Shown: positions 7,883-41,370 of the stretch, piece by piece
How positions within the stretch are numbered: position 1 is the first letter of the stretch
How the letters are laid out: every line of letters starts with the position of its first letter
Assembly (NCBI RefSeq): GCF_015169395.1
Contig: NZ_CP063458.1
Location: 124,001-188,000, forward strand
Direction of reading: 5' to 3'
From: Humisphaera borealis
GTDB taxonomy: Bacteria; Planctomycetota; Phycisphaerae; Tepidisphaerales; Tepidisphaeraceae
DNA length: 64,000 bases
Program-made: the position numbers and the translations under genes
The notes under the pieces: generated by a model
What the model was told of the DNA's origin: nothing
Seen by the model: only the letters and a program-made list of their open reading frames with translations
Databases searched by the model: none

Positions 7883-8477
7883 GCGCGGAAACCGGACTCA
7901 TCATTGGGATTCAGCGGTTCAGCCTGGTGGTACCTAGGCAGGGGCGCGGGAATGTAGTGGACGGCGACTCGGCCTATCCGTACAATATACTAACATACTC
8001 GCCGGCCGGTGACCGGCCTGGGGTTCGCGTTGTGGTGCGTGATCCCTGGGGCGGCTTGATCGCTTTGCACGGTCTGGCGGGGGCTCTGGTGGGAGGTGCG
8101 TCATGGCATGGATCGCGGCGGGACGGGGGTTCCTGGGTTCGTTCGGCGGTGCCATCTTGGGTTCGTTCGGCCATCCGGGCTTGGGTTCGTTCGGCGGAGG
8201 GACGTGGGGTTCGTTTGGCGGAGGGAGGTGGGTCATGTGGGACGAACGGCGGTCGACGCGGGACGCACCATGCACGGGCTGGAAGCCCGTGTCACGGACA
8301 GAGCCGTCGACGGCCAGGGTCTGGGGTTCGTTTGGCGAGTCAGCCGTGGGTTCGTTCGGCGGCGTGGCGTGGCGATTCGATGTGCAATGGTTGTCTTGGG
8401 TTCGTTCGGCAGACGGAGGTGGGTTATTGAGGATGAATGGCTATCGGCGTGTGGCGTACCTTGCACGGCTTGGAAAG
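7883..8477. repeat. Non-coding repeat region left of IS4 copy 1
   Basis: No credible gene. It holds seven copies of the 13-mer GGGTTCGTT(C/T)GGC (starts 8135, 8159, 8183, 8207, 8324, 8348, 8398) and a 51-base palindromic block (8251-8301) centred on GGGCTGGAAGCCC. A short GGCCGGTGACCGGCC hairpin lies near 8003. Long open frames here are translations of the repeats (LGSFGG-type) and are rejected as genes. Confidence 0.8.
8251..8301. repeat. Unoccupied palindromic target-like site
   Basis: The block contains GCACGGGCTGGAAGCCCGTG flanked on one side by GTGTCACGGACAG and on the other by GACGCACCAT. It matches, arm for arm, the sequences flanking both IS4 copies, but no insertion sequence is present. 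It is therefore a natural empty-site version of the IS4 target. Confidence 0.75.
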
Positions 8478-9937
8478 CACAACTGTCCGGCATTTCGACG
8501 CCGTGACATTCGCAAGATTTCGCTCTTGCGCTTTCTGATGCCGCGTGGCATAGTTCGCGCCCGTGGCGGTCCGTCGTTCATCCTCGCAGCAGCAACCGAC
8601 GCCGTCGGACCGACGTCTGGCCGTGCGCCGCTCCGGGAATCTCCTCGACGAACATCTCCATCGTCTGGCGGCGCTGCCGGCTCACGGCAACACCATCCTC
8701 GGCCGCGACCAGTTGGTCAAAGGCCTGCTCCTGTCGTTCTTCGATCCCATGGCCCGATCGCTGCGACGCATCGAAGACTGCGGCGACTTCCAGGGCGATC
8801 TGCGACTCGACAAGCTGGCACGCTCGACCACCGCCGACGCTCTTGCAGCGTTCGACCCTCAGCTGCTCGTGCCGCTGATCGACGACCTGCAGCAACGTGT
8901 CCCGAATCTCGGCGACGCCGACGGCCTCGAAGGGATCACCCGGCAGATCATCGCCGCCGACGGCACTTACATGACCACGCTGTGCGATGTGGCCTGGGCG
9001 ATGCGCCAAAAGAACCGCGACGGCGGCGTGCAGGGACAGGTCCGCGCCAACGTCCAGCTCGACGCCGGCAACTGGATTCCCCGCGTGCTGACCGTCAGCG
9101 GCGACGACGGGCATTCGGAGGCCGCGGCCTTCGCCGCCGACCTCCTGCCCGGCGTGCTGTACGTCGTGGACCGCAACTTCGTCGAGTTCGGCTTCCTCGG
9201 CGCCGTCCTGGACAAGGGCAGCGACTTTGTCGTTCGTATCAAATCCAACCAACCGGCGATGACGGTGGTCCAGACCCTGCCGCCGTCGGCGGCGGACGTC
9301 GAGGCGGGCGTGATCGCCGAGGAAGTGGTGAGACTTCCCGGCCGCGACGCGCCGGCGGGCCTGTTCCGCTGCATCACCATCGAGAGCACCGACCGATCGG
9401 GCGAATCCCAGGCACTGCGGCTGCTGACCAATCTTCCCGCGGCGACGGTCGGGGCTCACGTCGTCGGCGCCGTTTACCGGCTGCGCTGGCAGATCGAGCT
9501 GTTTTTCAAGTGGCTCAAGACCTGGGCGGGAATGGACCACCTGCTGAGCACCAGCCGCAATGGGATCACCACGCAGCTGTACATCGCGGTGATCGCCGTG
9601 CTGATGATGTACGTGCAGAGCGGCTACCGCGTCAGCGTCTACGCCCTGGCGGCGCTGGGCCGCGTGGCCCGGGGCCAGATGTCGATCCAGGAGGCGATGG
9701 CGGTGATCGCCAAACGCGAGCGAGAGCGTTCGCTGGAACGAGCGCGTCAGGCCCGGCTGCGGGCACGCAAGAAGCTGGCCTGAAGCCACGACGTTCCCGC
9801 ACACCCTGATCCGAGGGTGACGCCGCCGCATGCGCGCCATCAGCCGCGATCGCAAGCAAAGCCGAGCGACTCTGGTGAAATGAGGATGTGCCAGGTCATG
9901 GCTCACGCTGGAATTGGTAAATTGCCGGACAGTTGTG
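8478..9937 (+). mobile_element. IS4-family insertion sequence, copy 1
   Basis: 1460 bp, bounded by perfect 15-bp terminal inverted repeats (CACAACTGTCCGGCA at the left, its complement at 9923-9937) and flanked by a perfect 9-bp target duplication CTTGGAAAG (8469-8477 and 9938-9946). It is complete, with one transposase gene. Copy 2 at 33910-35369 differs by a single base (C at 9812, T at 35244), so spread is recent. The target lies in the loop of a palindromic repeat (CACGG...CCGTG). Confidence 0.95.
8563..9783 (+). CDS. IS4-family DDE transposase, copy 1
   Basis: 406 aa. The catalytic triad is visible: Asp133 in AADGTYM, Asp203 in YVVDRNF, and Glu312 in the exact IS4 signature Y(2)R(3)E(6)K (Tyr305, Arg308, Glu312, Lys319 in YRLRWQIELFFKWLK). 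The C-terminus is strongly basic (ERERSLERARQARLRARKK). The gene is intact and identical in protein sequence to copy 2. Confidence 0.97.
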   Translation: MAVRRSSSQQQPTPSDRRLAVRRSGNLLDEHLHRLAALPAHGNTILGRDQLVKGLLLSFFDPMARSLRRIEDCGDFQGDLRLDKLARSTTADALAAFDPQLLVPLIDDLQQRVPNLGDADGLEGITRQIIAADGTYMTTLCDVAWAMRQKNRDGGVQGQVRANVQLDAGNWIPRVLTVSGDDGHSEAAAFAADLLPGVLYVVDRNFVEFGFLGAVLDKGSDFVVRIKSNQPAMTVVQTLPPSAADVEAGVIAEEVVRLPGRDAPAGLFRCITIESTDRSGESQALRLLTNLPAATVGAHVVGAVYRLRWQIELFFKWLKTWAGMDHLLSTSRNGITTQLYIAVIAVLMMYVQSGYRVSVYALAALGRVARGQMSIQEAMAVIAKRERERSLERARQARLRARKKLA

Positions 9938-10029
9938 CTTGGAAAGCCGTGTCACGGACAGCGGTCGTCGTCGGCGTTCCTGGTGACCGTTGCCCCTCGC
10001 CGATTGCAGATTCCGGGTTCCGGTGCATC

Positions 10030-11091
10030 ATGATTCTTCGCATGACCAAGATCCCACTCCTGCTGCTCTGCGGCCTGATCGGCGGCGTTGTGCTTACGGC
10101 GCGGGTTGGCTGGTCGAACGCGACAGTGCCGGTGTTAGCGCCGGTGTTGGCGCCGGCGGCGGCGGTGAAGCGGTTTACGCCAGAGCAGGTGCGGCTGCCG
10201 GGCAAGAAGGGTGTGGGGTTTCCGCTGCCGCCACGCGATGCTTCGGGGCGGAAGCCGGCGGAGAATGATGCGTTTCGCAAGACGAGCCTGCTCCGGGCGG
10301 CGGCGCTGGACGTGTCGTGGAACTACTCGTGGAATCTGCACCTGGCCGACGAGCAGCCGAAGGAACGGGAGTTCATGCCGATGGTGTTCGGCGGCAAGTG
10401 GCTGGGGAACCCCAAAGCGGTGAACAAGCTGTCCGAACAACTGACGGCGGAGCTGGGTCCGCTGGTTCGCTCGGGGCGTGTGAAGCGGCTCCTGGGGCCG
10501 AACGAGCCGGACCATAAGGAGCAGGGCAACATGACGGTCGAGCAGACGCTGGCGCTCTGGCCGACGCTGGAGGCGCTGGGCGTGCCGCTTTGCAGCCCGG
10601 CCTGCGCCAACACCGAGGGCACCGAAGCCGCCGACCCCGCCAACCAGGGCGTCGGCGGAAACTGGATGCCGGCGTTCATGGCCGAGGTGGATAAACGCGA
10701 GCTGCGCGTCGATTACATCGGCACTCACGGCTACCCCGGCCCCAACGCCGAGGCGTTCAAGACCAAGCTCAAACGGATTCACGAGAAGTACGGCGGGCGG
10801 CCGCTGCTGATCACGGAGTTCGCGGTCGCCGACTGGAAGACCGGCGGCGACATCGCCAAACATCGCTACACGCAGGCGCAGGTGCTGGCGTTCATGAAAG
10901 ACGTCGTCCCGTGGATGGAACGGCAGAAATGGATAGCCGGCTACGCATGGTTCCCGTTCGAGGCCGATTCCCCGCAGGGGACGAGCAGCGCGTTGTTCGA
11001 CGCCAAAGACAAGCTCACGGCGCTGGGTCGGTTTTATCGAAGCGTCACGCCGGAGAACCCGGACGGGGATCGGACGATTCGGGCGGAATGA
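10030..11091 (+). CDS. Secreted glycosyl hydrolase-like protein (Asl1/GH128 type)
   Basis: 353 aa from ATG 10030 (an alternative ATG at 10042). An N-terminal hydrophobic stretch (KIPLLLLCGLIGGVVLTA) is a signal peptide or anchor. The body follows the Asl1-like/GH128 TIM barrel: DVSWNYSWNL, GPNEPD with the acid/base Glu, VDYIGTHGYPG, and PLLITEFAVADW with the nucleophile Glu. GH128 enzymes cleave beta-1,3-glucans, and substrate here is inferred only. IS4 copy 1 sits 92 bases upstream of the start and may have separated the gene from its original promoter. No clear ribosome binding site was seen. Confidence 0.82.
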   Translation: MILRMTKIPLLLLCGLIGGVVLTARVGWSNATVPVLAPVLAPAAAVKRFTPEQVRLPGKKGVGFPLPPRDASGRKPAENDAFRKTSLLRAAALDVSWNYSWNLHLADEQPKEREFMPMVFGGKWLGNPKAVNKLSEQLTAELGPLVRSGRVKRLLGPNEPDHKEQGNMTVEQTLALWPTLEALGVPLCSPACANTEGTEAADPANQGVGGNWMPAFMAEVDKRELRVDYIGTHGYPGPNAEAFKTKLKRIHEKYGGRPLLITEFAVADWKTGGDIAKHRYTQAQVLAFMKDVVPWMERQKWIAGYAWFPFEADSPQGTSSALFDAKDKLTALGRFYRSVTPENPDGDRTIRAE

Positions 11092-11100
11092 GGGGGGCAG

Positions 11101-11128
11101 CACGGGCAAGCGTACTTGCCCATGCCAC
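11101..11128. repeat. Single copy of the GGGCAAGCGTAC palindrome
   Basis: CACGGGCAAGCGTACTTGCCCATG: one hairpin of the family that recurs at 37312, 49786, 52986 and 61288. It follows the GH128 gene immediately. Confidence 0.6.
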
Positions 11129-11152
11129 ATGGCGTACCGGCGATGACGGTGG

Positions 11153-12655
11153 TCAGCATTGCGTGGCGTCGTAGCCGGGTTCGGTGGCGGCGTTCTGGTG
11201 GGCCTCGATCAGCTCGGCGATCAGTTTGCCCAGCGTCGGGATGGCGCGTTCGACTTCGGGGGTCCAGAGCAGGCCGCAGTTGATGCGGATGCAGTTGCGG
11301 TACTTGCCCGTGGCCGAGAAGACGACGCCGGGGCAGATGGAGACGCCTTTTTGGATCGCGCGATCATGAAGGGTGACCGAGTCCATGATTTCGGGCAGCT
11401 CGACCCAGAGGAGAAAGCCTCCCTGCGGGCGGGTGATGCGTGTGTCGCGGGGGAAGTGCTCGGCGATCAGTTCGCTCATGCGTTCGACCTGTCGGCGGTA
11501 GATGGAGGTGACCTTTCGCAGGTGGCGGTCGTAGCCGCCTTCGTCCATGAACTGGGCGAGCGCCAGTTGCGGCAGGGTGGGCGCGGCGATGTTGAGCCAG
11601 GCCTTCATGCGGGTGACTTCTTTCACCCATTTGCCGGGAATGCACCAGCCGATGCGCAGGCTCGGCGCGACGGTCTTGGAGACGCCGCCGCACACCATGA
11701 CGTGGCTCTGCGAGGAGGGGCCTTCGTCGAAGCTGCGGCAGGAGCGGGGGCGTGGGGGTTCGAAGACGAGGTCGGCGTAGATTTCGTCTTCGATGAGGGG
11801 GATGTCGGCCTTGCGGACCATAGCGACGAGCTGCCGGCGGTTTTCTTCCGGCATGATGGAGCCGAGGGGATTGTGGGCGCTGGGGATGAGGACGATCGCC
11901 TTGACGAGTTTCTGGCTGAAGACGACTTCGAGGGCGTCGAGCGAAGGGCCGGTGCGCGGGTGGGTGGGGATTTCGAGCGCCTTGAGGCCGAGCATCTCGA
12001 CGGTTTGCAGGATGCCCCAGTAGGTGGGGGACTCGAGGGCGACGGCGTCGCCGGGCTGGGTGACGGCGCGGAGGCAGAGGTGGATCGCTTCGAGGGCGCC
12101 GCAGGTGATGACGATGTCGTCGGGCGAAAGCTTGCAGCCGGCGCGGATGTACCACCGGGCGACCTGCCGTCGGAGGGTGGCCATGCCGGCCGGCGGGGGG
12201 TAGCTGGCGGAGAGCAGGGGTTGCGATCGGCTGATCGAGCTCATCAGCGAGTGGACGGCTTTGATCGACCAGTCGGAGACCGCGCCGTTGGACGCGCCCA
12301 GGCCGATGATGCCGGGCTGGCCGAACTCGGTGAGCAGGAGCAACCGAAGGTCGCCGACGGTCACCGCCGAGGCCGTTTCCGGCGGGCGGGACATGAGGGG
12401 CTCTTCGACGTTCTCCCGGCGAAGGGCCCGGACGTAAAACCCGGACTGCGGACGAGGCTGGAGCCGGCCCTGGTCTTCGAGCAGGCGATAGGCGGCGACG
12501 ACCGTGGAAACCGAGACTTTCAACTGCACGGCGAGCGATCGGACCGAGGGCGCGCGGCTGCCGACGGGGAGTGTACCGTTGTCGATCATCTCGATGATCT
12601 GTCGCGCAACGTCTTCATACAAAGGCGTTTGCGACTTTGATTGGGTGTTCTCCAT
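11153..12655 (-). CDS. MocR/PdxR-type regulator: GntR HTH fused to aminotransferase fold
   Basis: 500 aa. Residues 10-75 form the GntR winged helix (SVRSLAVQLKVSVSTVVAAYRLLEDQG). Residues 110-490 are a fold-type I PLP domain with SPTYWG at 209-214, NPLG at 262-265, the DEIYADL block and the PLP lysine in GGVSKTVAPSLRIGW (Lys327). Such proteins usually sense PLP or amino-compound ligands and control amino-acid, vitamin B6 or GABA genes. The target here is unknown. The start is the ATG at 12655. Two copies of CCAGTACAGTTG lie directly upstream, a likely autoregulatory operator. The next plus-strand gene (12880) is divergent and could be under the same control. Confidence 0.92.
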   Translation of the reverse strand: MENTQSKSQTPLYEDVARQIIEMIDNGTLPVGSRAPSVRSLAVQLKVSVSTVVAAYRLLEDQGRLQPRPQSGFYVRALRRENVEEPLMSRPPETASAVTVGDLRLLLLTEFGQPGIIGLGASNGAVSDWSIKAVHSLMSSISRSQPLLSASYPPPAGMATLRRQVARWYIRAGCKLSPDDIVITCGALEAIHLCLRAVTQPGDAVALESPTYWGILQTVEMLGLKALEIPTHPRTGPSLDALEVVFSQKLVKAIVLIPSAHNPLGSIMPEENRRQLVAMVRKADIPLIEDEIYADLVFEPPRPRSCRSFDEGPSSQSHVMVCGGVSKTVAPSLRIGWCIPGKWVKEVTRMKAWLNIAAPTLPQLALAQFMDEGGYDRHLRKVTSIYRRQVERMSELIAEHFPRDTRITRPQGGFLLWVELPEIMDSVTLHDRAIQKGVSICPGVVFSATGKYRNCIRINCGLLWTPEVERAIPTLGKLIAELIEAHQNAATEPGYDATQC

Positions 12656-36788: not shown

Positions 36789-37491
36789 TCGCGCGATATC
36801 GCCAAACGAACCCAGGACGACATCGCCAAACGAACCCAGGACGACATCGCCGAACGAACCCAAGTGATCGATCAGCCTGTCCACGTCGTCTCTCGCGTCC
36901 CTAAATCTCCGCGTCACTTCAACGCACCAACACCACCACCCCGGCCCGACCGACACCGATCGTCCCAGGGACGGCCATCTCCACGGAGTAGACGCTGAAG
37001 GCCGACAGATCACACCCACCGACCGGCGCATGGAGGAAGGACGCCGCCCGTCCCAGGGCGACGCCGGATATTGTTCTATATATGTTAGGTGTACGGCCGC
37101 GAAAGACAAGCAAATTCCGCCCGGCATCGAGCGCGGGTGTGGTCATTTTTCCGGGCGGCCATTGTGGTGCGGGCTTTCAGCCTGCATTTCCGCTGCACAA
37201 ACATCGTTTGTTCGATACCGCCCGGAAAAATGGTCACGCCCGCGAGCGCTCCTGAGCCGCCCCCGCGACCCGTGAACCTCGACGGCCCCGCCCGCCCCCG
37301 GCCAATTCCGGGTGGCATGGGCAAGCGTACTCGCTTGCCCGTGGCGGTCGCCGACCGACGCTCTCGTCACTGGCAACAGGCGTTGCTGCCAAGCCACCCG
37401 AAATCGTCCGGCCGCCAGAACCCCGCACGACACCCATGACCACGCAGTTCCGCACCCGCCGGGTTCGCAAGGGTCGCCAGAATCGAGTGGC
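36789..37491. repeat. Gene-free repeat region right of IS630
   Basis: It contains three tandem 24-base units with GCCAAACGAACCC (36801, 36825) and GCCGAACGAACCC (36849). A 15-bp perfect inverted repeat CATTTTTCCGGGCGG (37144-37158) / 37218-37232 surrounds a GTGGTGCGGGCTTTCAGCCTGCA piece. The GTGGCATGGGCAAGCG hairpin lies at 37312-37343. Short frames here have no family features. Confidence 0.7.
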
Positions 37492-37966
37492 CCGACCAAA
37501 AGCCTCGAAGAGGCGGCAGCGCCATAGCCCAGGGTGGAGGTCGGTACGCCGGCCGCAACCCTGGGTCGATCAACCGATGGATCCCGAGCCCTGAAAGGGC
37601 GACAGAGCACCCGGCGTCGCCGCGGCGACGGCTCTGTCGCCCCGACAGGGCTCAATCCGTGTACATCGCCAACCCAGGGCTCGTCCCGGCTTCGCCGAGC
37701 AGCGCCCCGGGCTATGGCTCTGCCGCCTCTTCGAGGCTCAAAGACCCAACCAGACGTTGCGTTTGACCCACGAATGAACCGTCCCGGCACGCACGATCCA
37801 GACGTTCGAGGCGCTTCACAGAGAATCTGCTAGACATTTGTTCAGGCACAACAAGATATCTTTCTCGCAGCGTTGCGATTTCCTTGTTGGCGGTAGCGCC
37901 AAGGGCTATTCTCGCGATTGTCGATCCGCACGGGTTGGCCGTGGGGTTACGATAACAATGGTTATG
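37492..37966. repeat. Module repeat R1, copy 1
   Basis: 475 bp, matching 39097-39535 at well over 90 percent identity apart from an internal indel of about 37 bases. The first 250 bp contain a 30-bp inverted pair (arms beginning AGCCTCGAAGAGGCGGCAG and its complement). The last 200 bp are nearly invariant and end in GGGGTTACGATAACAATGG, eight bases before the start of gene A. It may carry a promoter (TACGAT-type -10). Confidence 0.88.
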
Positions 37967-37973
37967 CCTCTTC

Positions 37974-38288
37974 ATGAACGCCCCCGACGACATCGTCGAG
38001 TTATATGGCCATCGCATGCGCCGCGATTGGGCGGAGGCGCTTCAGGAGGCGCAAGATGAGACTCACCTCGTCTGCGAAGGCGAGGTGTACCCAAAGATCG
38101 CGTACGGCGACGAGACGTTTCGCACGCCCGTCGAGGCCGACCACGAGCCGTGTCGCCACTGCGGGACGATCAAGGGCAAGTTTCACTGGCATGCCTGCGA
38201 CTATGAGCAGTGCCCGCGGTGTGGCGGCCAGATGATGTCGTGCGACTGCGAATTTGTCGGCCACGAGTGGCGGGAAGAAGAGGCATAA
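37974..38288 (+). CDS. Module gene A: 104-aa putative zinc-ribbon protein
   Basis: Starts 8 bases after repeat R1. The N-terminal half is acidic (DDIVELYGHRMRRDWAEALQEAQDETHL). The C-terminal half is cysteine- and histidine-rich: CRHCG, HACDYEQCPRCGG, SCDCEFVGHEW, giving CxxC pairs suited to one or two zinc sites. No family recognised. The TAA stop lies inside the R''-like box of the attC-like site at 38283-38380, as is usual for integron cassette genes. Confidence 0.7.
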   Translation: MNAPDDIVELYGHRMRRDWAEALQEAQDETHLVCEGEVYPKIAYGDETFRTPVEADHEPCRHCGTIKGKFHWHACDYEQCPRCGGQMMSCDCEFVGHEWREEEA

Positions 38289-38380
38289 CCTGCCGATGCA
38301 CCGGACGGGGCCGGTGGTATAGTTTCTATCGTCGAGCGCGGATCGTGCCGGCCCGGCCGGTGATCGGCCCTACGTTGAAC
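38283..38380 (+). other. attC-like recombination site after gene A
   Basis: 98 bases. It begins GCATAAC (R''-like, one mismatch to RYYYAAC, containing the gene A stop) and ends GTTGAAC (perfect GTTRRRY R' core). Inside, GCCGATGCACCGG pairs with CCGGTGATCGGC, with a single unpaired G in the left arm, followed by a further GGGCCGG/CCGGCCC stem and a variable loop of about 33 bases. Two imperfect inner and outer box pairs with an extrahelical base define attC sites. No integrase gene is in the window. Confidence 0.5.
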
Positions 38381-38383
38381 CAT

Positions 38384-38567
38384 GACGAGGAAAAAGGGAC
38401 ATCACTCTTTTCCGAGATCGCCTGCCGCCCTTTGCGGTGATCGAGGACACGGTAGAATCCCCGGTGGCGACGGAGCGGGCGGTGCGTGGCATCGTGGAAA
38501 AGATGGACACCGTCGTCGCCGAGAGCCGAGAGGTAATGAAAAAGAGTGATGTCCCCTTTTCTTCGTC
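38384..38567. repeat. Module repeat R2, copy 1 (MITE-like)
   Basis: 184 bp with long terminal inverted repeats (left GACGAGGAAAAAGGGACATC, right its near complement ending CCCCTTTTCTTCGTC). Matches 40189-40383. It contains TTGCGG-N15-TAGAAT (38435-38461 area) pointing toward gene B, so it may supply a promoter. No intact ORF. Confidence 0.82.
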
Positions 38568-38584
38568 CCCCCTTTTCTTCGTCC

Positions 38585-39052
38585 ATGAGTGAAGCCGGCA
38601 TCGAGCTTTCGCGAACGCCGTACGAGGAGCCATACCATTTGTGCCTCCTGATCAGGGCATCAAACGGGCGGCTTCGCGGCGAGCTTGAGTACTATTGCAA
38701 CGCGAGTGATATACAAGAACTCGGGTCCCAGCTACGGCGCTATTCCGGCGACAGGGAAAAGGAGATCGTCTACGAACTTGGTTCCGAAAAGCCGGAAGAT
38801 CGATTCGCGTTCTTCCTCAGCCTCCGCGTGAAGGCGATCAACTTGCGCGGACATTGTTGCGTGTCGGTCCGACTGAACAACAACGATTCCCGACCAGATA
38901 GAGAGATCACGGAGTTCTCAATTCCGGCCGAGGTGGCGGACGTGAATCGTCTTGGCGACTTGCTCACCGGTTTCGGCCAGCTGAGGCACCGCCGGTTGAT
39001 CTGGCATGTGACGACTGGCGAGTTGCTCGAAGACGGCGACGTCGCGGGATAA
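38585..39052 (+). CDS. Module gene B: 155-aa protein of unknown function
   Basis: Starts 17 bases after R2. Mixed alpha/beta soluble protein (LCLLIRASNGRLRGELEYYCNASDIQELGSQLRRYSG, then LRVKAINLRGHCCVSVRLNNN). The size and style are like orphan immunity-type proteins, but no family was recognised. Followed by a hairpin terminator and then repeat R1 copy 2. Confidence 0.7.
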   Translation: MSEAGIELSRTPYEEPYHLCLLIRASNGRLRGELEYYCNASDIQELGSQLRRYSGDREKEIVYELGSEKPEDRFAFFLSLRVKAINLRGHCCVSVRLNNNDSRPDREITEFSIPAEVADVNRLGDLLTGFGQLRHRRLIWHVTTGELLEDGDVAG

Positions 39053-39068
39053 CCCCGGACTGAGAAAA

Positions 39069-39096
39069 CGGGACAGGTCCTGTCCCGCTTTCCGTT
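39069..39096 (+). terminator. Terminator after gene B
   Basis: CGGGACAGGTCCTGTCCCG: a 9-bp palindromic stem followed by CTTTCCGTT. It ends at the border of R1 copy 2. Confidence 0.55.
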
Positions 39097-39535
39097 CCGA
39101 CCAAAAGCCTCGAAGAGGCGGCAGAGCCATAGCCCAGGGTGGAGGTCGGTACGCCGACCGCAACCCCGGGTCGATCGACCGATGGATCCCGAGCCCTGAA
39201 AGGGCGACAGAGCACCCGGCGTCGCCGCGTCAATCGCCAACCCAGGGCTCGTCCCGGCTTCGTCGAGCAGCGCCGCGGGCTATGGCTCTGCCGCCTCTTC
39301 GAGGCTCAAAGACCCAGCCAGACGTTGCGTTTGACCCACGAATGAACCGTCCCGGCACGCACGATCCAGACGTTCGAGGCGCTTCACAGAGAATCTGCTA
39401 GACATTTGTTCAGGCACAACAAGATATCTTTCTCGCAGCGTTGCGATTTCCTTGTTGGCGGTAGCGCCAAGGGCTATTCTCGCGATTGTCGATCCGCACG
39501 GGTTGGCCGTGGGGTTACGATAAACAATGGTTATG
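39097..39535. repeat. Module repeat R1, copy 2
   Basis: 439 bp. Same order of elements as copy 1 (37492-37966), lacking about 37 internal bases. The last 230 bp differ at only a few positions. Ends 19 bases before gene C. Confidence 0.88.
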
Positions 39536-39554
39536 TGCTGCCGGCGGGACGGCT

Positions 39555-40160
39555 ATGGCGAACTTAGACTTCTTTGCGATTCGGCCCGACCTTGAGCAGC
39601 TCTTCGCGTTTCTCTTCGCTGAGACAGACTTCCAGGTGTTCGAGTCGTATTCCGAGTTCGGCCAGCCGATTCGCCAGTTTGCCTCATTCGAAGACCTGTG
39701 CGCGGCGTTCGATGTCGGCCATGACAAGCACGGAAATGGAACCGCGGCACTCCTTCAACTCTGGTCGCCGTCGGTCAGGCGGAAGCAGGAGATCGAGCGG
39801 ATCAGCCTCGACCCGACGAAATGCGATGGTTTTACGTTTCGCTTCCGCATCTCGGGTCTTGGCCTTGTGCAGCTTTACCTCGGCGGCATTCACGATCGCG
39901 TCATCATCAAGTCGCATTACGGTCACTTCTCCGAGCGGGGCGCGGCGCGGTGGGGCGACGTCAGTTCCGTCGACTGGAACGCATTGAGTAAGCTATCCGG
40001 CAAGGTTCAGCGTCACATACGGCGCAAGCTCGGCGTCGCAAAAGTCCCGGGGCGTCCAGTGCTGCCCGGGGCGTATAAGCTGCATACCGAAGGCTTCGAA
40101 TTGAAAGAAGCCGATCAAACGCCTTGGGCGTACGCGGGAGCCACGGCAGGCAGCACATAA
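39555..40160 (+). CDS. Module gene C: 201-aa protein of unknown function
   Basis: MANLDFFAIRPDLEQLFAFLFAETDFQVFESYSEFGQPIRQF begins a soluble alpha/beta protein. Central FRFRISGLGLVQLYLGGI and HYGHFSERGAARWG segments look like a beta sheet with a conserved basic pocket. C-terminal HIRRKLGVAK. No family recognised, though the organisation resembles small immunity/DUF proteins of planctomycetes. It occupies the same slot as gene A but is unrelated to it. Confidence 0.7.
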   Translation: MANLDFFAIRPDLEQLFAFLFAETDFQVFESYSEFGQPIRQFASFEDLCAAFDVGHDKHGNGTAALLQLWSPSVRRKQEIERISLDPTKCDGFTFRFRISGLGLVQLYLGGIHDRVIIKSHYGHFSERGAARWGDVSSVDWNALSKLSGKVQRHIRRKLGVAKVPGRPVLPGAYKLHTEGFELKEADQTPWAYAGATAGST

Positions 40161-40188
40161 CCCGCCAATGCAGTGGACCGAGCCGGCG
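40155..40188 (+). other. Left half of an attC-like site after gene C
   Basis: ACATAAC overlaps the gene C stop and is followed by CCGCCAATGCAGTGGACCG, homologous to the left arm of the site after gene A. The right arm and GTTRRRY core are absent: repeat R2 copy 2 begins at once. It appears to be a truncated site. Confidence 0.4.
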
Positions 40189-40383
40189 GACGAAGAAAAG
40201 GGGACATCACTCTTTTCCGAGATCGCCTACCGCCCTTTGCGGCGATCGAGCACACGGTAGAATCCCCGGTGGCGACGGAGCGGGCGGTGCGTGGCATCGC
40301 GGAAAAAGATGGACGCCGTCGTCGCCGAGAGCGGAGAGCCAATGGACAAGAGTGATGTTTCGTGATGTTTCCTTTTCTTGGTC
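40189..40383. repeat. Module repeat R2, copy 2
   Basis: 195 bp, same terminal inverted repeats and the same TTGCGG-N15-TAGAAT element as copy 1. The right end carries a short duplication (GTGATGTTTCGTGATGTTT). Confidence 0.82.
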
Positions 40384-40401
40384 GAGACAAAATTGGTAGC
40401 A

Positions 40402-41205
40402 ATGGCAACGTATGACGAATGGTTCCTCGGGATCGTGGCCTACTACCGGCCGCTGGGCTTCTTCGTCTCTCCTCCATTTGCCGGGCTTTCAGACCTTCAA
40501 TGCCAACGTCTCATCGAACAGAAGCATCCGAACTGGTTTGCGGACCAGTTTCTCAATCCGAGAGTGACGGGTAACTCCCTCAAGTCCCTTGAGGATTTCA
40601 TTGTCCAAATGGACCGGAGCCGCGTCTGGACCACAGATCAGGAAGGTGTTTATGAAAGTTGCGGCTTCTACGCCCAGAGTATCAAGAGCCTCGCGGCGAT
40701 CGCTCGGGGCGCTTTCAAGCCGCAAGACGTGAGCGAAACGTGGGAAGAGGCGGACGGCCGCGAGTTCGTGATTCGCGTGGGTTTTGAGCTGGCGGGCACG
40801 CCCATGCACCTGTGGATCAATCGCTGCGGAGATTTCGCCAATAGCGGCTGGATCGACATGGTCAACCAAGTGTGCGGCTATCGCGATCCGCGTTTTCGAC
40901 TCTACCCTGACTCGCAGGACTGGCGCGTTATCTTCCAAACCGATGGGGATGCGGCAGCCATGGCGACCCGACATTGGCCGACTAGCAATTTTGACAGCAT
41001 CTCGGGAATCATCAGTTACCCGCCGAGCGATGGCGCCATCCTCCGCTACAAGCGCGACCGATGGCTCTACTGGCACCGGGGAGTGTTTCGGTACCGCATT
41101 GGCGACGTAGCGGGGGCGTGGGACGATTGGCTCCTCGCGGAGAAGCTCGGATTCCCCGACTTGTACCGCCGGTGCGACGAGCTCACGCGGGACAACGGGG
41201 CCTGA
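40402..41205 (+). CDS. Module gene D: 267-aa protein of unknown function
   Basis: Starts 18 bases after R2. Hydrophilic alpha/beta protein with many aromatic residues (YDEWFLGIVAYYRPLGFF, CGYRDPRFRLYPDSQDWRVIFQTDGDAAAMATRHWP, RYKRDRWLYWHRGVFRYRIGDVAGAWDDW). The last segment resembles a TPR-like helix pair. No family recognised. Occupies the slot of gene B in the second module. Confidence 0.7.
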   Translation: MATYDEWFLGIVAYYRPLGFFVSPPFAGLSDLQCQRLIEQKHPNWFADQFLNPRVTGNSLKSLEDFIVQMDRSRVWTTDQEGVYESCGFYAQSIKSLAAIARGAFKPQDVSETWEEADGREFVIRVGFELAGTPMHLWINRCGDFANSGWIDMVNQVCGYRDPRFRLYPDSQDWRVIFQTDGDAAAMATRHWPTSNFDSISGIISYPPSDGAILRYKRDRWLYWHRGVFRYRIGDVAGAWDDWLLAEKLGFPDLYRRCDELTRDNGA

Positions 41206-41370
41206 GCGAAGATAAGCAATCAGCCGGTCGCGTGGCCGAATACGCCAACCCTACTTGGCGGCAAGGCGAGATGACCTGCCATCGCGGTCCCTGTTGTGAT
41301 TCGAACGCCCGGGGGGGGGCGGCCCTGGCCAGTGAACGTTGATCCGTTATCCGGTACAGGGCTTTCCGAT

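Follow-up and report, generated by a model that had tools for sequence, protein, structure and literature searches.

How do nearly identical repeats come to stand in front of genes that have nothing in common? This question is raised by a locus of the Humisphaera borealis chromosome, which lies in the 64-kb stretch that we analysed (bases 124001-188000 of one 7.19-Mb contig, hereafter the window) and consists of two modules in tandem, each with a repeat (R1 or R1′), a gene (A or C), a second repeat (R2 or R2′) and a further gene (B or D). R1 and R1′ are 97% identical in their first 133 bp (37492-37624 and 39097-39229) and 98.7% identical across ~303 bp of their second half (4/303 differences), R2 and R2′ are 92% identical across 170 bp (13/170 differences), and a genome-wide search returned the R1′ tail and R2′ with E-values of 1e-111 and 3e-65, far beyond chance. 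The repeats, their coordinates and the conserved end of R1 and R1′ had been described in an earlier reading made from the letters of the stretch (the sequence-only reading), and its description of the genes also holds: all four start 8-19 bases past the repeat ends as first defined (Table 1), protein comparisons give no meaningful similarity within the pairs A/C and B/D, and nothing above cut-off was found for A-D in Pfam, NCBIfam or PADLOC. We conclude that the locus is very probably a decayed integron that lacks an integrase and has one cassette platform in two tandem copies, a reading that rests on attC sites, cassette boundaries, platforms shared with other loci, an intI start in sister copies and a distant intact integrase, all of them observed.

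The R1 tail and its cassettes

We then examined the structure of R1 and found that it is composite, which refines the earlier description: an inverted-repeat element resembling a miniature inverted-repeat transposable element (MITE; 37501-37738) is followed by a tail of ~222 bp. In both R1 and R1′, the final ~220 bp are the region that separates intI from attI in an integron. The sequence-only reading had excluded an integron; this was wrong, as the R1 tail is an integron head and A and C are gene cassettes. The tail is present in six intact copies in the chromosome (two in the window and one each at 4.68, 3.81, 0.578 and 7.16 Mb) and, in addition, in one broken copy at 0.487 Mb. A gene cassette lies directly behind all six intact copies and no copy is empty. 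A plain DNA search missed two diverged copies (L108, at 0.578 Mb, and L111), so that its total of four was too low; both were recovered by reading of the flanks together with a sequence-only model of the last 100 bp. This model, built from five copies, recovered the sixth, which was absent from its building set and heads a cassette (89.5 bits, E 8e-25). In a search of 397 genomes of the class, the model gave a single foreign match at E<=0.001 (E 5e-4), in G006, which belongs to another genus of the family; there the copy heads a contig bearing attC sites. When the species-genome collection was scanned with a pattern for the R1 tail, no match was obtained.

At the cassette border, the tail ends in GATAAAC-AATG-GTTAT when aligned across the copies, and this would give inverted L and R boxes arranged as in an attI simple site. 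Cassettes A and C open exactly at the G^TT cut, and the first 12 nt of each are mirrored at its own attC at all 12 positions (TTATGCCTCTTC...GAAGAGGCATAAC for A and TTATGTGCTGCC...GGCAGCACATAAC for C); for the remaining heads and the intact integron, 9-12 of the 12 positions agree. A covariance model made from nine attC sites, among them that of cassette A, gave 21 matches at E<=3e-4, in ~12 chromosomal loci, with strong covariation in the hairpin (18 double-changed cells, versus 5.9 in shuffles). The attC of cassette A is ~91% identical to the attC beside the one intact integron integrase of the chromosome. This integrase is encoded at 6.02 Mb (6021297-6022262), 1.3 Mb from the window (347 bits, cut-off 265), its nearest solved structure is V. 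cholerae IntI4, and its gene is accompanied by an attI, one cassette and one attC. A second integron, at 2.1 Mb, has its intI reduced to the start; a further array, of four attC sites, has an attI remnant as its head (5.09 Mb).

No complete integrase lies next to the attI-like site of the window, and solely the start of intI is left, which is recognisable in the sister copies. Read leftwards, the copy at 0.578 Mb and the copy in G006 each encode the N-terminus of an integron integrase (PF13495, E 3.4e-4 and 1.5e-6, respectively), in register with IntI and with none of 3000 shuffles scoring as well in either case. A complete intI joined to an R1-type attI would be expected to begin VKLLERLDRACRLAY.... 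In the window, the frame departs from IntI after ~15 codons and ends inside the MITE-like element. The distance from intI start to cut is 142 nt, versus 132-172 nt in the family's clearest heads with intI or its remnant and ~105 nt in one more degraded head. Between this start and the cut lies a putative cassette promoter that points toward the cassettes and whose hexamers and 17-bp spacing are preserved in the aligned copies; this pair may be active as a promoter.

Table 1. Features of the locus (positions in the window).
Feature	Positions	Strand	Details
Dispersed repeat U	36925-37130	+	upstream of platform; genome search, ~9 copies at >=85%
R1 first half, MITE-like	37501-37738	.	44-nt inverted arms; sits at intI truncation point
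R1 second half, platform copy 1	37740-37961	+	5′ intI remnant on minus strand, putative cassette promoter, attI-like site
intI 5′-end remnant	37745-37819	-	GTG at 37819 reading leftwards, VKRLERLDRACRD...; DNA homology to L108 copy
Putative cassette promoter TTGTTG-17-TATTCT	37884-37912	+	palindrome TTGGCGGTAGCGCCAA spans -35 and spacer
attI-like core GATAAC-AATG-GTTATG	37951-37966	+	cut between 37961 and 37962; copy alignment and cassette boundary test
Gene cassette A	37962-38374	+	first 12 nt TTATGCCTCTTC = reverse complement of GAAGAGGCATAA at own attC
Gene A	37974-38288	+	104 aa, Cys/His-rich; no family in Pfam/NCBIfam
attC of cassette A	38283-38380	+	94.9 bits and genome-wide E 1.4e-22 with the nine-site covariance model, which includes this site
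R2, REPIN/RAYT-derived nonautonomous element	38385-38582	.	target duplication CCATG at 38380-38384 and 38583-38587; separates attC of A from B start codon
Gene B	38585-39052	+	155 aa; no family; from the target-site duplication, originally right behind attC of A, reading GTTGAACC-ATG
Possible attC remnant of B (GGATAAC), weak	39047-39060	+	9.0 bits only
R1′ first half, second MITE-like copy	39106-39306	.	inverted repeat and genome search
R1′ second half, platform copy 2 with intI remnant	39308-39530	+	promoter 39452-39480, core 39519-39535; model score 102.9 bits
Gene cassette C, attC truncated	39531-40189	+	first 12 nt TTATGTGCTGCC = reverse complement of GGCAGCACATAA at 40149
Gene C	39555-40160	+	201 aa; no family found
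Left half of attC of C, ACATAACCCGCCAATGCAGTGGACCGAGCCGGCGG	40155-40189	+	~28 nt identical to L062 attC; broken off at R2′
R2′, second REPIN-like element	40190-40382	.	adjoins broken attC of C; no target duplication
Gene D	40402-41205	+	267 aa; no family found
Possible degenerate attC behind D, doubtful	41269-41352	+	16 bits, local E 0.004

Several observations weigh against an integron at this locus. The R1 core does not have the sequence of the attI beside the intact intI, and its recognition by that IntI is therefore putative. A strict consensus sigma-70 scan called no promoter at TTGTTG-17-TATTCT, the intI remnant of the window is too short to be recognised and is not significant when tested alone, and the bottom-strand folding of the attC of A, taken alone, is modest (z -1.7). 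B has no matching attC and fails the imprint test, and the possible attC behind D forms no bottom-strand hairpin. The attC tally of the locus is one full site, one half site and two doubtful ones, to be set beside the at least two sites without a nearby intI by which a cluster of attC sites lacking an integron integrase (CALIN) is defined.

The R2 elements

R2 had been taken for the second of two repeats that act as fixed frames around exchanged genes. Its true boundaries, which replace the earlier ones, are 38385 and 38582, with the 5-bp duplication CCATG at each flank, and so R2 was inserted between the attC of A and the start codon of B; since it is an insertion with a target duplication, R2 is debris and not a frame. 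It has 28-nt inverted ends like those of REP sequences, and its minus strand starts like the gene of a RAYT (IS200-like REP-associated transposase), as judged by eye from comparison with a fuller relative at 5.29 Mb (L112). The match of this relative to NF047646 (E 3.6e-4) falls below the curated cut-off, and that to Y1_Tnp is weak. Two RAYT-like upstream regions occur there (L112:6959-7828 and 10644-11423), ~3 kb apart and inverted, one of which keeps a transposase start. R2 is thus like REPIN/RAYT repeats in its ends and in the start of its frame, and unlike them in that its copies are internally deleted and lack the transposase.

The notion of fixed frames therefore stands in part: cargo is exchanged behind a fixed R1 tail, whereas R2 is the remnant of an insertion with no role in the cassette boundaries. 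Exchange does not take place between two repeats, as had been proposed, but at a single attI-type cut at the end of R1. The search for further copies that the sequence-only reading had put forward likewise gave a divided answer, in that R1 elsewhere heads different genes, and is thus neither confined to this locus nor tied to the same genes, whereas a framing role of R2 is unsupported. A new kind of exchange locus, in which R1 and R2 jointly frame the cargo, would account for the regular alternation of repeats and genes; it is, however, contradicted by the insertion of R2 at the B start codon, by the kinship of R2 with RAYT repeats that are dispersed through the genome and by the lack of an R2-like element at the corresponding position in most R1-tail copies, and we regard it as virtually excluded.

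Origin of the two modules

We next considered how the two modules could have arisen. Recombination between attI and attC, mediated by IntI and with a cut at G^TT, would have brought cassettes A (with B) and C (with D) behind the two attI copies, so that a constant front would be joined to differing cargo. R1, R1′ and the copy at 4.68 Mb (L061) have the same MITE-truncated intI junction, and the window and L061 can be aligned in one continuous 663-bp stretch that spans the MITE-like element and the tail. Further copies of the MITE-like element occur in the genome without an R1 tail. The MITE-like element very probably replaced the rest of intI prior to the copying of the platform, as the common truncation implies that the platform was copied after intI loss. 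Behind this one junction, three different first cassettes begin precisely at the cut. Most simply, an integrase supplied in trans probably inserted or excised cassettes after the loss of intI in cis. A RAYT/REPIN-type element would later have entered the site between A and B; a related element adjoins the broken attC of C. Recombination between MITE copies is the most likely origin of the tandem arrangement and would have joined two alternative arrays of the same attI; the start of R1′ at the MITE edge fits this. One may go further and suggest, tentatively, a distributed integron operated in trans, in which a single integrase serves several scattered orphan promoter-attI platforms. If so, captured cassettes could be delivered to many expression sites rather than to one array.

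The order of repeats and genes and the high identity of both repeat pairs could also result from a simple segmental duplication, in which one unit of R1, gene, R2 and gene was doubled in tandem and the genes then diverged past recognition. This requires that A and C, and B and D, lost all likeness although the repeats between them stayed nearly identical. Furthermore, R2 and R2′ have diverged significantly more than R1 and R1′ (p 0.001), and therefore the modules are not one duplicated unit; a duplication also fails to account for the exact G^TT boundaries with mirrors at the cassettes' own attC sites and for the yet other genes held by further R1-tail copies. We consider it highly improbable. 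A somewhat better case, although an unlikely one, can be made for the R1 tail as a dispersed repeat that is not an attI, with the cassettes inserted at secondary sites, given that cassettes can enter non-classical genomic sites (attG) (PMC12901181, PMC12444791) and that U and the MITE-like element around R1 are dispersed repeats. Against this stand the intI start, which is kept in register and at a normal distance from the cut, and the occupation of all six intact copies by cassettes.

A variant of the decayed integron differs in one step only: all cassettes would have been inserted while the platforms still had their own intI, which decayed independently, with no later exchange in trans. It finds support in the truncation points of intI, which differ among L108, L111, L062 and the window group, and in the recurrent intI loss reported in Xanthomonas (PMC12444791). 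The single MITE-truncated junction of R1, R1′ and L061, with its three different first cassettes, speaks for exchange after the loss, and so we hold the variant to be possible without favouring it.

Related systems and further observations

Integrase-less cassette arrays are common in genomes, and their origin and activity are debated. The locus shares with sedentary chromosomal integrons (intI, cassette promoter Pc, attI and attC array) the attI-type cut, the G^TT boundaries, the attC hairpins, the divergent intI start and an intact IntI in the genome; unlike in these, intI is truncated in cis, the arrays are very short, and the platform is tandem-duplicated and has four further intact loci and one broken locus. 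As in CALINs, cassettes with attC sites are dispersed in the chromosome with no adjacent intI, but CALINs are defined by attC sites alone, whereas the arrays here retain a recognisable promoter-attI head. The core of Delta-attI1, AAACAAAGTTRRRY, resembles the R1 core (AAACAATGGTTAT / AAACAAAGGTTAT); Delta-attI sites, found in unusual cassettes, are attI pieces that replace attC behind a cassette in mobile integrons (PMC12901181), whereas complete heads precede chromosomal cassettes here. Xanthomonas (PMC12444791) is one known example of CALINs, recurrent loss of intI and dispersed arrays, and models of planctomycete attC sites already exist (PMC8352920). In the openly licensed papers that we searched, we found no report of one chromosome with many orphan promoter-attI platforms. 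The multi-copy orphan platforms are an unusual variant of the known integrase-less arrays, in that the heads are retained in many copies, three of which carry one intI-destroying insertion and different cassettes. This combination makes the use of an orphan attI by an integrase in trans directly testable. The gene pool described for this planctomycete family is also enlarged by integron cassettes that pass between genera.

Among 26 genomes of the order, attC matches were present in 12 and a full intI in 4; draft assemblies conceal some intI, since the intI start in another genus (G004) runs off the contig end, and this makes the apparent absence of intI from relatives unreliable. G004 also has two orphan copies of the attI that lies next to its intI, nearly identical over ~40 nt; they stand at the head of cassette arrays at other loci, with no intI remnant (L119:4357, L123:4266, L122:7885). 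A second recurrent array head, with the core GGTCAGGTTAATCACTAGTTAT, was seen in three genera, G004 included (L119:916, L126:5443, L127:5527, L122:6263, L128:6793, L124:9024). The gene of cassette 1 in the 2.1-Mb array (L060:7290-8168; ~285 aa, no Pfam family) encodes a protein that is 88-90% identical to those in two other genera (L123, L124), where the heads are different. This is a recent cassette exchange among three genera, and cargo moves between heads.

No relatives of D were found in the species-genome collection, and an Rfam scan gave no match. A PADLOC scan for immunity systems returned nothing, and nothing points toward the immunity function that had been suggested. Between 30 and 48 kb of the window, no transposase with terminal repeats encloses A-D; DDE elements occur at 33995-36697, outside the locus. 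The repeat U also precedes the platforms in L061, L062, L107 and L108; we rejected it as a platform component since it is found at sites without cassettes too.

At L111:6650-8340, an IS110-family transposase gene (PF02371, PF01548) lies between two attC halves, and relatives at attC sites, with the common end sequence GGGATTGCATGG, occur in L110. This looks like an attC-targeting insertion sequence in a planctomycete, for which the IS1111-attC group provides the comparison. A DDE_Tnp_1 insertion sequence is present in the window in two copies that are 99.7% identical (33995-35215 and 8475-9951), with another upstream of the 4.68-Mb platform, and an IS630-type transposase extends over two overlapping frames at 35656-36697 (HTH and DDE_3 parts), frameshifted or broken. 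Finally, the short dispersed repeat GCCGAACGAACCC occurs at 33619-36864 and at many other genome sites in very many copies, sometimes in runs with ~24 bp spacing.

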